Assembly: GCF_900240245.1 (NCBI RefSeq)
Contig: NZ_OESQ01000001.1
Span: 2,281,615 to 2,345,614, forward strand
Reading direction: 5' to 3'
Source of the DNA: Lachnoclostridium edouardi
GTDB lineage: Bacteria > Bacillota > Clostridia > Lachnospirales > Lachnospiraceae
Length of the DNA: 64,000 nt
A program made the position numbers and the translations under genes. The notes below the pieces were generated by a model that was given only the letters and a program-made list of their open reading frames with translations, did no database searches and had not been told where the DNA came from. Positions 2,380-6,609 of this stretch are shown here, piece by piece. The first letter of the stretch is position 1; each line of letters begins with the position of its first letter.

Positions 2380-3060
2380 TTAAGTTAATTTACTTCCGTT
2401 GGCTGTCAGCTTAAATTTACAGCCTAATACTTCTGCTGCTCTCCGGCACATAATCATTCTTTGGAGAAAGATTTCAAAATAATCCATTACGGAACACATT
2501 GTATCGTCCAGTTCCAAATCCATTTGAATTACCATTTTTTCAGCATTTACAGAAAGCTTAGAGGAGAGAGCGGCATAATTGACCCGGTCGTGGGCGTCAA
2601 AGCTGGCAATGACCTGATTTCGCACCCGATTTCTGCGTACGTCTGTTTTATCTGCCAGTATGAGAGCAGCTGATACCACGTCTACCGCGGTTCCAGTGCT
2701 TTCGTCGTGATTTCCTATGGCTGAAGCTATTATAGCTGCATCTTCTAAAGGCAGCTCCAGCTTTTTTAAAATTTCGTAGGCCAAAATTGCTCCGCTGTGG
2801 GCGTGGTCGTGTCTGTTAATCGCGTTGCCAATGTCGTGCATATATCCGGCAATTTTACTTAAATATATATGATGCTTACTACAGCCTAATTTTTTCAAAA
2901 TTTCTCCTGCTGTCTCAGCTACCTTTGCGGCATGTTTTCCAGAGTGTTCTGTATAGCCTAATTTTCCTAAAACTTGATTTCCCTGTTCAATTAAAATATT
3001 AATCTCCTGATTTTTTCTGATTTGTTCATATGTGATGTTTTCTTGCTTTTTCTCTTTCAC
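2380..3060 (-). CDS. HD-domain phosphohydrolase
   Basis: The 226-residue product carries a metal-binding HD domain: H43, the H75-D76 pair in GYMHDIGNA, further histidines in RHDHAHSG (near 84-88), a GNHDE motif near residue 117, and ADKTDVRRNRVR in the place of the distal Asp. HD proteins hydrolyse phosphomonoesters or phosphodiesters, often of nucleotides; the substrate is not evident here. The start codon is a GTG with only a moderate ribosome binding site, so a nearby alternative start is possible. It is transcribed divergently from the cysteine operon and ends 22 bases from the convergent PBECR4-like gene. Confidence 0.8.
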   Translation of the reverse strand: MKEKKQENITYEQIRKNQEINILIEQGNQVLGKLGYTEHSGKHAAKVAETAGEILKKLGCSKHHIYLSKIAGYMHDIGNAINRHDHAHSGAILAYEILKKLELPLEDAAIIASAIGNHDESTGTAVDVVSAALILADKTDVRRNRVRNQVIASFDAHDRVNYAALSSKLSVNAEKMVIQMDLELDDTMCSVMDYFEIFLQRMIMCRRAAEVLGCKFKLTANGSKLT

Positions 3061-3214
3061 AGTACTTTTTACCTTTCCCGGTATTAGACTAAATAATGAT
3101 ATTTAATTTCCGATTTAATATTAGTTATTATCTGTACAAAGAAAAAGTATATCCAGATTTTATAAGTTCTGCTATCTGATTTTTGTAAAATCTTAGTAAA
3201 AAACATAATTCCTA

Positions 3215-3243
3215 TTGACATACTATGAAATAAGTGGTAATCT
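3215..3243 (+). promoter_or_regulatory. Promoter of the cysteine operon leader
   Basis: TTGACA (3215-3220) and TAATCT (3238-3243) are separated by 17 bases. The predicted transcript starts about 3250, just before the first arm of the leader hairpin at 3256. Confidence 0.7.
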
Positions 3244-3255
3244 TTTAAACAACTA

Positions 3256-3391
3256 ATTCATATTAAATAGATATGAATGGAGGTACTTTATGAACGCTAT
3301 ATTTATCAGGCTGCTGAGAGAAAATTTCCGAAATGGGCGAATGTGCTGTTGTAAATAACCAGAAGGCAGTGACTGCTGCAAAGATTCATAT
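3256..3391 (+). promoter_or_regulatory. Candidate cysteine-responsive leader with competing arms
   Basis: ATTCATAT occurs at 3256-3263 and again at 3384-3391. Its complement ATATGAAT occurs once, at 3271-3278, immediately before the GGAGG site of the leader peptide. The single complement can therefore pair with either the upstream or the downstream copy, the layout of an on/off switch. A GCAG-TGA-CTGC hairpin near 3366-3376 follows the leader peptide stop. This is read directly from the sequence; the regulatory role is inferred. Confidence 0.5.
3290..3358 (+). CDS. Polycysteine leader peptide (22 residues)
   Basis: An ATG with a strong GGAGG site six bases upstream opens a 22-codon frame ending in the residues Met-Cys-Cys-Cys-Lys and TAA. 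The three Cys codons (TGC TGT TGT) stand just before the end. The peptide begins 47 bases after the predicted transcription start and ends 66 bases before an operon for cysteine and homocysteine synthesis. This is the arrangement of amino-acid attenuation leaders, in which slow decoding of the regulated amino acid changes RNA folding or downstream translation. Polycysteine upstream ORFs that sense cysteine are established in mycobacteria. Function here is inferred. Confidence 0.65.
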   Translation: MNAIFIRLLRENFRNGRMCCCK

Positions 3392-3423
3392 GCAAATAAA
3401 AATAATGAAAGAAGGTATTTACA

Positions 3424-4713
3424 ATGGCAGATAAAACATTCAGATTTGAAACATTACAGGTACATGCAGGACAGGAACAGCCAGACCCGGCTACTGGAGC
3501 CAGGGCAGTGCCTATTTATCAGACTACATCTTATGTATTTGACAACTGCGCTCACGCAGCGGCCAGATTTGGCCTGGAGGACGCAGGAAATATTTACGGA
3601 AGACTTACAAACAGTACTCAGGATGTGTTTGAAAAGCGGGTGGCGGCTTTGGAGGGAGGCGTAGGAGCTTTGGCAGTTGCATCAGGAGCTGCAGCCATTA
3701 CTTATGCATTCCAGGGCTTAGCAAAAGGCGGAGACCACATTGTTTCAGCCAGAACTATATATGGAGGCTCTTATAATCTGTTGGAGCATACTCTTCCAGA
3801 ATATAGCATTCACACTACTTTTGTAGATCCAGAGGACCCGGAAAATTTTAGAAAAGCTATAAAAAATAATACAAAAGCAATATTTATAGAAACTTTGGGA
3901 AATCCTAATTGTAATATTATTAATATGGAAGCTGTTGCTGCGATTGCCCATGAAAATGGAATTCCATTAGTAGTAGATAATACATTTGGAACGCCATGGC
4001 TGTTTCGCCCTATAGAACACGGAGCGGATATTGTAGTACATTCTGCTACAAAGTTTATAGGCGGGCACGGCACCACCTTAGGCGGAATTATTGTGGACAG
4101 CGGAAAGTTTGATTGGAAGGCCAGCGGAAAATTCCCCTCTCTTACAGAGCCTAACCCCAGTTATCACGGGGTGATTTTTACAGAGGCAGCAGGAGCAGCG
4201 GCATTTATTACTAAAGTGAGAGCAGTGCTTTTAAGGGACACTGGGGCTACTCTTTCTCCCTTCCATGCATTCCTGCTTTTACAGGGACTTGAGACCTTGT
4301 CCCTGAGAGTAGAACGTCATGTGGAAAATGCTTTAAAGGTAGTAGATTATTTAAACTCCAATCCTTTAGTAGAAAAAGTAAATCATCCGTCCTTGCCAGG
4401 CCATCCGGACCATCAGCTTTATGAAAAGTATTTTTCTCATGGCGCAGGCTCGATTTTTACATTTGAAATAAAAGGAAATGATGAAAAAGCTAAAGCATTT
4501 ATTGACCATTTAAAATTATTTTCCCTGTTGGCAAATGTAGCCGACGTAAAATCTTTAGTAATTCATCCTGCCAGTACAACCCATTCTCAGTTAACTGAGA
4601 CAGAATTAAGGGAGCAGGGAATCAGACCAAATACAATTAGATTATCTATAGGAACAGAGCATATTGACGACATAATTGAAGACTTAGAACAGGCCTTTCG
4701 GGCAGTATTATAA
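3424..4713 (+). CDS. metY: O-acetylhomoserine sulfhydrylase (Cys/Met metabolism PLP enzyme)
   Basis: The 429-residue protein is a full-length fold-type I PLP enzyme of the Cys/Met metabolism family. It starts with the FETLQVHAGQ segment typical of MetY-type sulfhydrylases. The Schiff-base lysine is K210 in HSATKFIGGHGTTLGG, preceded by VDNTFGTPW. Later signatures include HPASTTHSQL and IRPNTIRLSIGTEH. MetY forms homocysteine from O-acetylhomoserine and sulfide, though some homologues use O-acetylserine. It forms an operon with cysK 14 bases downstream, behind the polycysteine leader. Confidence 0.92.
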   Translation: MADKTFRFETLQVHAGQEQPDPATGARAVPIYQTTSYVFDNCAHAAARFGLEDAGNIYGRLTNSTQDVFEKRVAALEGGVGALAVASGAAAITYAFQGLAKGGDHIVSARTIYGGSYNLLEHTLPEYSIHTTFVDPEDPENFRKAIKNNTKAIFIETLGNPNCNIINMEAVAAIAHENGIPLVVDNTFGTPWLFRPIEHGADIVVHSATKFIGGHGTTLGGIIVDSGKFDWKASGKFPSLTEPNPSYHGVIFTEAAGAAAFITKVRAVLLRDTGATLSPFHAFLLLQGLETLSLRVERHVENALKVVDYLNSNPLVEKVNHPSLPGHPDHQLYEKYFSHGAGSIFTFEIKGNDEKAKAFIDHLKLFSLLANVADVKSLVIHPASTTHSQLTETELREQGIRPNTIRLSIGTEHIDDIIEDLEQAFRAVL

Positions 4714-4727
4714 GGAGATGAATCATT

Positions 4728-5657
4728 ATGAAAATATATCATTCTATTACAGAATTAGTTGGAAGAACGCCTTTACTAGAGTTAGAAAAATTTGAGCAGA
4801 AATATGATTTTAAAGGGAAACTTCTGGCTAAATTAGAGTATTTTAACCCGGCGGGCAGTGTAAAGGACAGAATTGCCAGAGAAATGATAGAGATGGCAGA
4901 AGAGGCGGGAGCGCTGAAAAAAGGAGCGGTAATTATTGAACCTACCAGCGGAAATACTGGAATAGGACTGGCCTCTGCGGCAGCGGCAAAAGGCTATAGG
5001 CTGATTATAGTAATGCCGGAAACCATGAGCGTAGAGAGGAGAAACCTTATAAAAGCATATGGCGCAGAGTTGGTGCTTACAGATGGAGCTAAGGGAATGA
5101 ATGGGGCCATTGCAAAAGCAGAAGAACTGGCCGGAGAAATCCCTGAAAGCTTTATACCAGGCCAGTTTGTAAACTTGGCAAATCCTAAGGCTCACAGGAC
5201 ATACACAGGACCGGAAATCTGGGAGGACACAGACGGCAATGTAGATATTTTTGTAGCGGGAGTTGGCACAGGAGGAACTATTACAGGAGTGGGAGAATAT
5301 TTAAAGTCTAAAAATCCTAAAATTCAGATAGTGGCCGTAGAACCTGAGGATTCTCCTGTGTTGTCACAAGGAAAACCAGGACCTCACAAAATCCAGGGTA
5401 TTGGAGCCGGGTTTGTGCCTGAAATTTTAAATACAAAGATTTATGACCAGATTATCCAGGTGAAAAATCAGGATGCTTTTGATACAGGTAGGGAAATAGC
5501 CAGAACAGAGGGAGTTTTAGTGGGAATTTCTTCAGGAGCCGCTTTGTGGGCAGCCCTGCAGCTGGCAAAAAGACCTGAAAATCAGGGAAAGAATATTGTA
5601 GTTCTCCTGCCTGATACAGGAGAGCGTTACTTGTCTACTCCAATGTTTGCAGAATAA
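4728..5657 (+). CDS. cysK: Cysteine synthase A (O-acetylserine sulfhydrylase)
   Basis: The 309-residue protein is a fold-type II PLP enzyme of normal CysK length. The PLP lysine is K46 in [11 protein letters not shown], and the substrate loop TSGNTG is at residues 73-78. The glycine-rich phosphate loop is [10 protein letters not shown] near residue 180, and SSGAA lies near the C-terminus. It makes L-cysteine from O-acetylserine and sulfide. It is the second gene of the metY-cysK operon and is followed by an intrinsic terminator at 5738-5788. Confidence 0.95.
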
Positions 5658-5737: not shown

Positions 5738-5788
5738 AGGCGCTGAATCTGACTACCCCTTAAAGGGATGAGGATTCAGTGCCTTTTG
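5738..5788 (+). terminator. Terminator between converging cysK and EFR1 gene
   Basis: AGGCGCTGAATCT pairs with AGGATTCAGTGCCT, and an inner CCCCTT/AAGGG stem closes the loop. The 3' arm runs into TTTT, and an A-rich stretch on the other side would also allow it to serve the minus-strand gene. Confidence 0.75.
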
Positions 5789-5820: not shown

Positions 5821-6609
5821 TTATTTTTGTGGAAATTCTTTATTGTCTGCTAAAATCTCAGATGAGGAAGGGCAAATATAATAGCCGTTTTTCTTTGCTT
5901 TACCTTTGTAGTCAATAGCATGGACCGGGCACTTGTGTATACAGCCTAAGCAGAACATACATTGGTTTCCAAAAGTGATTTTTCCGTCTTTTGTAGTAAT
6001 GTTATTTACAGGACATTCCTTTATACATTTTCCGCAGTGAATGCACTGGTCTGATACCTTAAAAGCCCTGCTGCTTTTCATAAATGTATTAAAACCCCAA
6101 TATGCTGCAGAAGACAAAAACCAATCATTACTTTTGTGCTCATAAAGCTTTAAAACTTGTTTATTTCTAATAATATTTTCTATATTGTGAATGAAAGGAA
6201 TAACTTTTTGTATTTTTAAAACAGCTTCTTCTTTGGAAAGCATTTGATCAGCTAAAAAGTAATTGTCAGGCATGGGAATTCCTGCAAATCCCATATATGT
6301 CATCTGCTTTTTTTATGTGATCCGCTGACAGGAGTTCATTGCAGATCCAGCGTGCCCTCCCATTGTTATTACAAAATAAATTTCTTTACTTCCAGTAAAA
6401 ACAGCATTTTTAAGAAGCAGCTTAACTTTTTTTGGCAAACGCCACGCATAAACAGGCGCTGCCAGTATAAATGGGGTTTCAGAGTGAAATTCCCATTTTT
6501 TATTATACTTGAAAACGTGATTCAGGGATACAATCTCATCTTTTAAATCCCTTGCCATCATTTCAGCTACAAATTTAGTATTTCCAGTGCTGGAAAAGTA
6601 TAAAATCAT
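5821..6609 (-). pseudogene. EFR1-type flavodoxin-ferredoxin split by an in-frame TAA
   Basis: Two open segments lie in the same frame, 6609 to 6316 and 6303 to 5821, separated only by a TAA at 6313-6315 and three codons. Joined, they make about 262 residues, the usual length of EFR1 proteins. The N-terminal part is a flavodoxin-like domain (YFSSTGNTKF, PVYAWRLPKKV, VITMGGHAGSA). The C-terminal part carries two 4Fe-4S clusters (CIHCGKCIKECPV and CMFCLGCIHKCPV) after YMGFAGIPMPDNY. The stop sits inside a conserved linker, so this looks like a nonsense mutation, or a base error, rather than two genes. A T-to-C or T-to-A/G change would restore the frame. EFR1 proteins are presumed electron carriers. 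Confidence 0.8.

Follow-up and report, generated by a model that had tools for sequence, protein, structure and literature searches.

The 22-codon open reading frame in front of metY and cysK in Lachnoclostridium edouardi reads as a cis-acting leader peptide through which the cysteine supply would set the translation of metY-cysK, a reading to which we give a probability of roughly two in three. Judged from modelled mRNA pairing, it most likely works like a cysteine-responsive leader-peptide attenuator of the translational type, and it belongs to a widespread, apparently undescribed family of regulatory mini-genes in Clostridia. The frame, the family, the fixation of one codon, the enrichment of Cys codons, the complementarity to the metY start and the terminators of relatives are supported by computation. 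The family signature, the helix predicted to join the Cys codons to the metY start, and the terminator forms in relatives had all been missed by an earlier sequence-only reading of the same 64,000-nucleotide stretch of DNA (the window).

That reading had correctly described a short frame with a strong GGAGG site and a Cys-Cys-Cys-Lys-stop end in front of metY-cysK. The leader starts 6 nt behind its Shine-Dalgarno sequence and ends with a TAA stop at 3356-3358, its start lies 134 nt before that of metY, and both genes behind it score above their model cut-offs. On its other side lies a divergent gene at 2380-3060 on the minus strand that is HD-domain-like by eye. The putative promoter, which had been called good, is only fair: TTGACA at 3215-3220 scores 6/6 and TAATCT at 3238-3243 scores 3/6 (by eye), which leaves it out of a consensus scan listing that needs at least 4/6 per hexamer. 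No Rfam match above the gathering score was found in the window, hence no S-box or T-box upstream of metY-cysK, and Rfam showed neither element in 40 further loci, half of them leader loci and half other metY loci; a SAM riboswitch or T-box was therefore rejected as a candidate. A scan of 3060-3500 found no terminator-like site and thus no intrinsic terminator between leader and metY, and no NCBIfam or Pfam model matched the leader at E values up to 1. Cys-Cys-Cys by itself says little against chance, as 11 such runs, the leader's own included, occur in open stretches of the window, so that any weight given to the leader must rest on comparison; there the frame proves to be more than chance, since its core recurs before metY elsewhere. 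At 5821-6609 on the minus strand, a flavodoxin-like N-terminal piece (6313-6609) adjoins a piece with 4Fe-4S-type cysteine motifs (5821-6303) by eye, as if one flavodoxin/ferredoxin fusion gene had been split by a frameshift.

Table 1 Features of the leader region and the metY-cysK operon in the window
Feature	Position	Strand	Basis
Putative sigma-70 promoter, TTGACA-17-TAATCT	3215-3243	+	By eye, below scan threshold
Shine-Dalgarno sequence GGAGG of the leader	3279-3283	+	Direct reading
Leader open reading frame, MNAIFIRLLRENFRNGRMCCCK and stop	3290-3358	+	Direct reading; family alignments A1-A3
Core NFRNGRM; Arg17 is CGA (3338-3340), Met18 is ATG (3341-3343)	3323-3343	+	Family alignment
Cys codons TGC TGT TGT, proposed stall codons	3344-3352	+	In-frame Cys enrichment across leaders
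Predicted sequestering helix, 5′ strand (Cys codons, Lys, stop)	3344-3360	+	Predicted pairing
Helix 3′ strand: metY Shine-Dalgarno GAAGG (3411-3415) and ATG (3424-3426)	3411-3429	+	Predicted sequestered
metY, O-acetylhomoserine sulfhydrylase	3424-4713	+	TIGR01326, 650 bits vs cut-off 495
cysK, cysteine synthase A	4728-5657	+	TIGR01139, 464 bits vs cut-off 351
Likely operon terminator, inverted repeat then T-rich stretch	5740-5787	+	By eye

Upstream regions were compared at 80 metY loci from GTDB genomes, among the matches listed, with identities to the window of at most 77% (78% later with L135; relatives are named by locus label), so the comparison holds no close relative. A first regular expression, [FYW][RK]xG[RKS]M with a limited set at x, gave 21 matches in six frames of the 80 loci, all 21 on the metY strand and at most 500 nt upstream of metY; in the window, a six-frame search with the family expression matched the leader and nothing else. 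Leader HMMs built from leaders (A1, later A2 and A3) were then run over whole genomes. They matched once each in 21 of 30 source genomes, 21 of these 30 having been chosen for leader presence, in 39 of 391 genomes of a class draw (E ≤ 0.01, centre genome included), and, in family draws, in 15 of 250 genomes and in 19 of 148 (the latter with the centre included). In a third family draw, 5 of 32 genomes matched, all five already in the class draw, and in a phylum draw the single match in 299 genomes was the centre genome itself. After L163 (at a contig end) and L155 and L170 (repeats of L093 and L112) had been dropped, 88 leaders entered the conservation counts, and L176-L178 were added to give 91.

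The next gene behind these 91 leaders is metY in 78 cases, a MetQ/NlpA lipoprotein gene in eight (under the NCBIfam cut-offs for MetQ, over the Pfam cut-off for NlpA lipoprotein) and a sulfate-binding protein gene in three; the remaining two stand before a nitrogenase-component-1-like gene and before an Rrf2 regulator gene about 240 nt away, which is not above the CymR cut-off. The target genes across species are thus wider than metY-cysK and take in metQ, sulfate uptake, an Rrf2 regulator and a nitrogenase-like gene. Twenty-two metY-type leaders, from the window and the 21 loci of the first HMM, came via metY; the other 69 came from the leader HMM alone, 56 of them before metY together with all 13 non-metY cases, so the link to sulfur genes was not put in by the HMM search. 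Nine weak HMM matches (E 3e-4 to 4e-3) were kept outside the counts: six are leaders, five before metY (L190-L192, L195, L196) and one before a gene like that of a sulfate-binding protein (L194, by eye); L193 is an unclear case, a leader-like peptide (NFRNGRICACRD) that has CGG in place of CGA and is followed by no recognised sulfur gene; and L197 and L198 do not fit the leader patterns. Among the 59 metY loci missed by the first regular expression, a hexamer search found candidate leader-like CGA-ATG frames in 17, with L021 kept out as doubtful. Some of these have NFRCGRM or NFRKGRM, and others are without NFRxG and carry repeats such as CCRMCCRMC or KRMCRMCR; as single cases these candidates are leads, and they enter the terminator analysis only (91 + 17 = 108).

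Several loci deserve separate mention. L180 has a leader with NFRCGRM and, about 190-6700 nt behind the core, a nitrogenase-like cluster with two component-1-like genes, a NifH-like, a radical-SAM-like and a metY-like gene (mostly by eye), which could be a methylthio-alkane-reductase-like sulfur salvage system. At L179, a weak leader match near 494 on the minus strand (NWRFGRLKQ and stop, with a CGA codon, E 0.005) directly precedes an MtaB-like tRNA methylthiotransferase gene (by eye) and may be chance. At L169 (1604-2023) and L183, the sulfate-binding gene behind a GRCC leader seems to have merged with the end of a metY-like gene, as if through a deletion (by eye); the genome has three strong leader matches.

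The sequence-only reading had proposed an alignment of relatives to ask whether the Cys run is conserved; the conserved part is instead NxRxGR with the CGA codon, within a core signature N[F/Y/W]RxGRM common to the family. N12, R14, G16 and R17 are invariant in all 88 leaders, M18 is kept in 85, R10 in 84 and L8 in 72, and the start codon, picked by the best Shine-Dalgarno sequence, lies exactly 17 codons before M18 in 69 of the 88. Three of the invariant residues are kept through synonymous codons, with N12 encoded by AAT in 52 leaders and AAC in 36, R14 by all six of its codons and G16 by all four, which speaks for selection on the peptide and is the amino-acid-level selection on a motif that marks arrest peptides. 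R17, on the other hand, is CGA in 87 of 88 leaders though CGA accounts for 22 of 952 Arg codons (2.3%) in the metY genes behind them, which speaks for selection on the codon. The CGA and the following ATG, often with TG, are kept at the nucleotide level, and the pattern extends into the tail, where Arg codons are CGA in 13 of 20 cases when they precede Cys and in 3 of 37 when they do not (p = 1e-5), and where CGATGY stands in frame 13 of 14 times. The fixed CGA codon raises the question of whether a weakly decoded codon before the starvation codon acts as an amplifier. The Faecalibacterium leader (L093/L066) has CGA ATG three times (GRM...ARMCTRM and stop), and L061 and L035 have repeats of CGA-ATG-TG[CT]. 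The Met codon of GRM was rejected as the sensor, as L161 and L169 read GRC/GRCC and L166 reads GRI; in frame, Met accounts for 8 of 405 tail codons, and in the two alternative frames for 4 and 19.

Behind GRM the sequence is variable but Cys-rich. Counting at most the first ten tail codons of each of the 88 leaders, Cys makes up 135 of 405 codons in frame (33%) while the two alternative frames give 5 and 9 of 405, and the window leader ends, as polycysteine attenuators do, with a Cys run at the end of a short upstream frame. The run is nevertheless lost in relatives that keep the first gene of the operon: in 23 of 91 leaders GRM or GRC is immediately followed by a stop codon (16 TGA, 7 TAA), and a pure polycysteine sensor therefore cannot be the logic of the whole family. 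On a tree of 74 metY proteins (58 with a Cys tail, 16 with the stop), the two forms change state 10 times, at least 9 times by supported branches, indicating that the core is the family constant and the Cys tail a module and, together with the 23 leaders that have no tail codon, that cysteinyl-tRNA cannot be the family's only signal. The idea of a cysteine-sensing leader is thus retained in part, since the frame is under selection, its Cys codons are a likely sensor and sulfur genes lie behind it, while the Cys run is not the conserved element. Two other uses of the stop forms were rejected: selenocysteine insertion or read-through at GRM-UGA, as the sequence after UGA is not conserved (by eye), and a frameshift into a frame overlapping metY, which is open in the window but stops early in L095 (by eye).

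These features also bear on the possibility, which we hold to be somewhat doubtful, that the leader is an arrest peptide. The ribosome, its exit tunnel occupied by N[F/Y/W]R[F/N]GR(M) and its P or E site by CGA, would then arrest in response to a small sulfur compound (candidates are cysteine, O-acetylserine, O-acetylhomoserine, methionine and SAM), and the Cys codons would add secondary tuning. TnaC and SpeFL arrest the ribosome in response to Trp and ornithine. Core residues fixed through synonymous codons, the constant distance from start to M18 and the identity of the +0 stop, which is TGA in 16 of 20 cases (16 of 23 when all 91 leaders are counted) compared with 31 of the 68 stops that lie further on among the 88 leaders, would all suit an arrest peptide, but the strong in-frame Cys enrichment is left unexplained by it, and L022, L025, L034, L035, L053 and L061 are without NFRxG yet have CGA-AUG and Cys codons.

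The fixed codon could alternatively mean that the leader reads the sulfur status of a tRNA rather than its aminoacylation, the speed of CGA decoding depending on thiolation of tRNA-Arg(ICG). CGA is read by this tRNA via an inosine-adenine pair, and the thiolation is s2C32. We consider this improbable: it would account for a rare codon being fixed at R17 and favoured before tail Cys codons, but the TtcA model is without a match over its cut-off in 38 leader-bearing genomes, a count blurred by genome incompleteness. TtcA-like matches above 150 bits occur in 31 of the 38 and only weaker ones in the other 7, and tRNA thiolation by TtcA as a universal basis is not supported in these 38 genomes. Less probable again is that the nucleotides GGNCGAATGTG are a DNA or RNA signal, either an RNA polymerase pause or a protein site, with the peptide incidental. 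The conservation of CGA and ATG, often with TG, as nucleotides would fit such a signal, and the G..TGYG of the conserved nucleotides resembles the elemental pause consensus; yet the synonymous changes at N12, R14 and G16 and the in-frame placing of CGATGY in tails argue against it, and L022 and L061 have lost the G with which the consensus begins (by eye). A chance frame or an independent micropeptide, for which the small size and nothing more would speak, is very unlikely given the recurrence before sulfur genes, the in-frame Cys bias, the variable tail and the complementarity to the start site in the window.

This complementarity also speaks for the cysteine-responsive attenuator. In the window, the predicted pairs join 3344-3357 with 3416-3429 and 3359-3360 with 3414-3415, by which TGC TGT TGT AAA TAA would pair with the metY Shine-Dalgarno sequence and start codon; pairing of the Cys-codon region with the next gene's start site is likewise a mark of polycysteine attenuators. 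The duplex has a predicted energy of -19.8 kcal/mol, the third lowest of 80 after L105 and L161, and none of 5000 shuffled tails reached it. Its tail codon choice is tied best of 48 synonyms, the three stop codons tying. No foreign partner fits better, whether 79 start regions are offered to its tail or 79 tails to its start region, which is true of 3 of 80 leaders. The fold of the whole region is not unusually stable (z = -1.14).

Across the family, the signal is present in a part of the leaders. In a cross-pairing test of 80 of the 91 leaders, from which seven terminator forms and leaders with unfit spacing were excluded, 20 of 80 tails had their own start region in the best 10% (expected 8; p = 9e-5) and 24 of 80 start regions had their own tail there (p = 6e-7), both p values counting related leaders as independent. 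In at least one direction, 27 leaders were in the best 10%, and 53 of 80 were in neither. Six of the 23 GRM/GRC-stop forms were in the best 10%, for example L095, L108, L112, L127 and L161, showing that such forms can keep the start-site helix, a point that also favours an arrest peptide. When 56 of 68 leaders were folded, predicted pairing of the Shine-Dalgarno sequence and start codon with the tail averaged 0.26 vs 0.08 for shuffled tails (p = 0.0095) and peaked at nucleotides 0-12 behind GRM (about 0.27 vs 0.09 with swapped start regions), but only 25 of the 56 exceeded their own swapped control in this chimera comparison (p = 0.04). With a modelled ribosome held at the GRM/+0 boundary, 13 of 60 leaders showed a start site opened by more than 0.2, and none showed it closed to that extent. 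The folding describes equilibrium only, with an assumed ribosome footprint of -15 to +11 of the A site.

On these predictions, the mRNA just behind GRM (Cys codons, Lys and stop) would by default pair with the metY Shine-Dalgarno sequence and AUG, keeping metY off. When cysteinyl-tRNA is short, a ribosome held on the three Cys codons would cover the 5′ strand and free the metY start; with cysteine plentiful, the ribosome would finish the leader and leave, and the helix would reform. N[F/Y/W]R[F/N]GR with CGA may act as an intrinsic pause site, bringing the ribosome to rest at the switch strand and rendering the codons that follow (Cys or a UGA stop) sensitive. We infer translation of the leader, stalling on it, its cysteine response and the pause or arrest at NFRxGR-CGA.

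Some relatives carry a strong terminator before the gene, as scanned in 12 of 108 leaders; an earlier scan of 88 leaders found 6, with none in shuffled spacers. The scan uses contiguous stems and misses the terminators of L053 and L059, which were seen by eye and stand outside the 12. In 4 of the 7 terminator leaders first examined, a ribosome at GRM is predicted to cover the antiterminator strand and cause termination, an opposite sign to that of the start-site helix, by which the proposition that a stall at GRM is always on was rejected and which led to a two-wiring model, framed on and tested with the same loci. Eight of the 12 terminator leaders, compared with six of the other 96, have Cys in codons 14-16, just before CGA-AUG (p = 3e-6). 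In these relatives, a ribosome held on the Cys codons before CGA-AUG would leave the antiterminator strand free (on), and one arrived at the pause would cover it (off). The folding agrees for 6 of the 8, whose predicted terminator probability rises once the ribosome has moved on from the Cys codon to RM (0.00 to 0.86, 0.05 to 0.87, 0.01 to 0.92, 0.00 to 0.93, 0.02 to 0.86 and 0.30 to 0.77); in L035 and L134 it falls, contrary to the model (0.79-0.86 to 0.60, and 0.99 to 0.75). Cys codons at +10 and +11 allow L092 and L094 to switch, but a further Cys codon at +0 would work in the wrong direction, since stalling there is predicted to form the terminator. L093 responds to a stall at +16 (0.06) and less clearly to one at +11 (0.48) or +17 (0.72), and L120 does not switch in this model. 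Before the second arm is made, the first terminator arm is predicted to be engaged at RM in L028 (0.90), L146 (0.77), L044 (0.59) and L027 (0.48). Both designs, the Shine-Dalgarno helix and the terminator, could by this modelling read as on at cysteine shortage.

Taken further, the leaders may form a new clostridial sulfur sensor, a proposal we offer tentatively and at less than even odds. CGA-AUG with N[F/Y/W]R[F/N]GR would be a programmed-pause position marker wired in two opposite ways, with Cys codons behind it and a Shine-Dalgarno helix or with Cys codons in front of it and a terminator, both turned on when cysteine runs short; where GRM-UGA ends the leader, the marker would by itself sense a sulfur signal via slow release or a tunnel ligand. 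Sulfur genes of clostridia are usually discussed under S-box, T-box and CymR control, and a further, cysteine-linked layer would come with a leader family that occurs in many clostridial genomes before metY, metQ, genes for sulfate uptake and an Rrf2 regulator gene. The hosts of such control matter for gut sulfur metabolism, and the leader raises the question of whether a nascent peptide can report sulfur status.

Polycysteine leader frames have been described in Mycobacterium, P. acnes and B. longum (PMC1262725). For the mycobacterial class, translation attenuation by pairing between the upstream frame and downstream sequence that hides the Shine-Dalgarno sequence is reported (Canestrari 2020, as cited in PMC13236596). 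The window leader resembles the actinobacterial frames in being short, with a Cys run near its stop, ahead of cysteine genes. Unlike the leaderless short frames reported for mycobacteria (Canestrari 2020, as cited in PMC13236596), it has its own Shine-Dalgarno sequence 6 nt before the ATG and is, judged from that sequence, not a leaderless frame. The clostridial family also differs from the actinobacterial type in its NxRxGR(M) core, fixed CGA and members without any Cys, and with its own Shine-Dalgarno sequence and another core we do not claim membership in the mycobacterial type. The uORFC-8-2 motif before cysS in Rhodobacterales combines tandem Cys codons with transcription attenuation at an intrinsic terminator (PMC8632094, in the part consulted), and in this the terminator-type clostridial relatives are like it. 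It differs in phylum, in gene and in its tandem Cys codons, usually at positions 14-15, and the consulted part of that paper makes no mention of an NFRxGR-CGA core (PMC8632094). In the literature searched, which included few subscription papers and preprints, no description of the clostridial leader family was found, exact core strings included, in agreement with the sequence-only reading, which knew of no clostridial version. TnaC, SpeFL and ErmCL have a conserved nascent chain and act by opening or closing mRNA structure. The clostridial leaders, compared from description only, share the conserved nascent chain and, as predicted, the action through mRNA structure, with UGA directly behind the motif in many, and differ by their Cys-codon tail. 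S-box and T-box elements control sulfur genes in Firmicutes; their target genes are similar to those found here, and the clostridial family differs from them in that its leader encodes a peptide.
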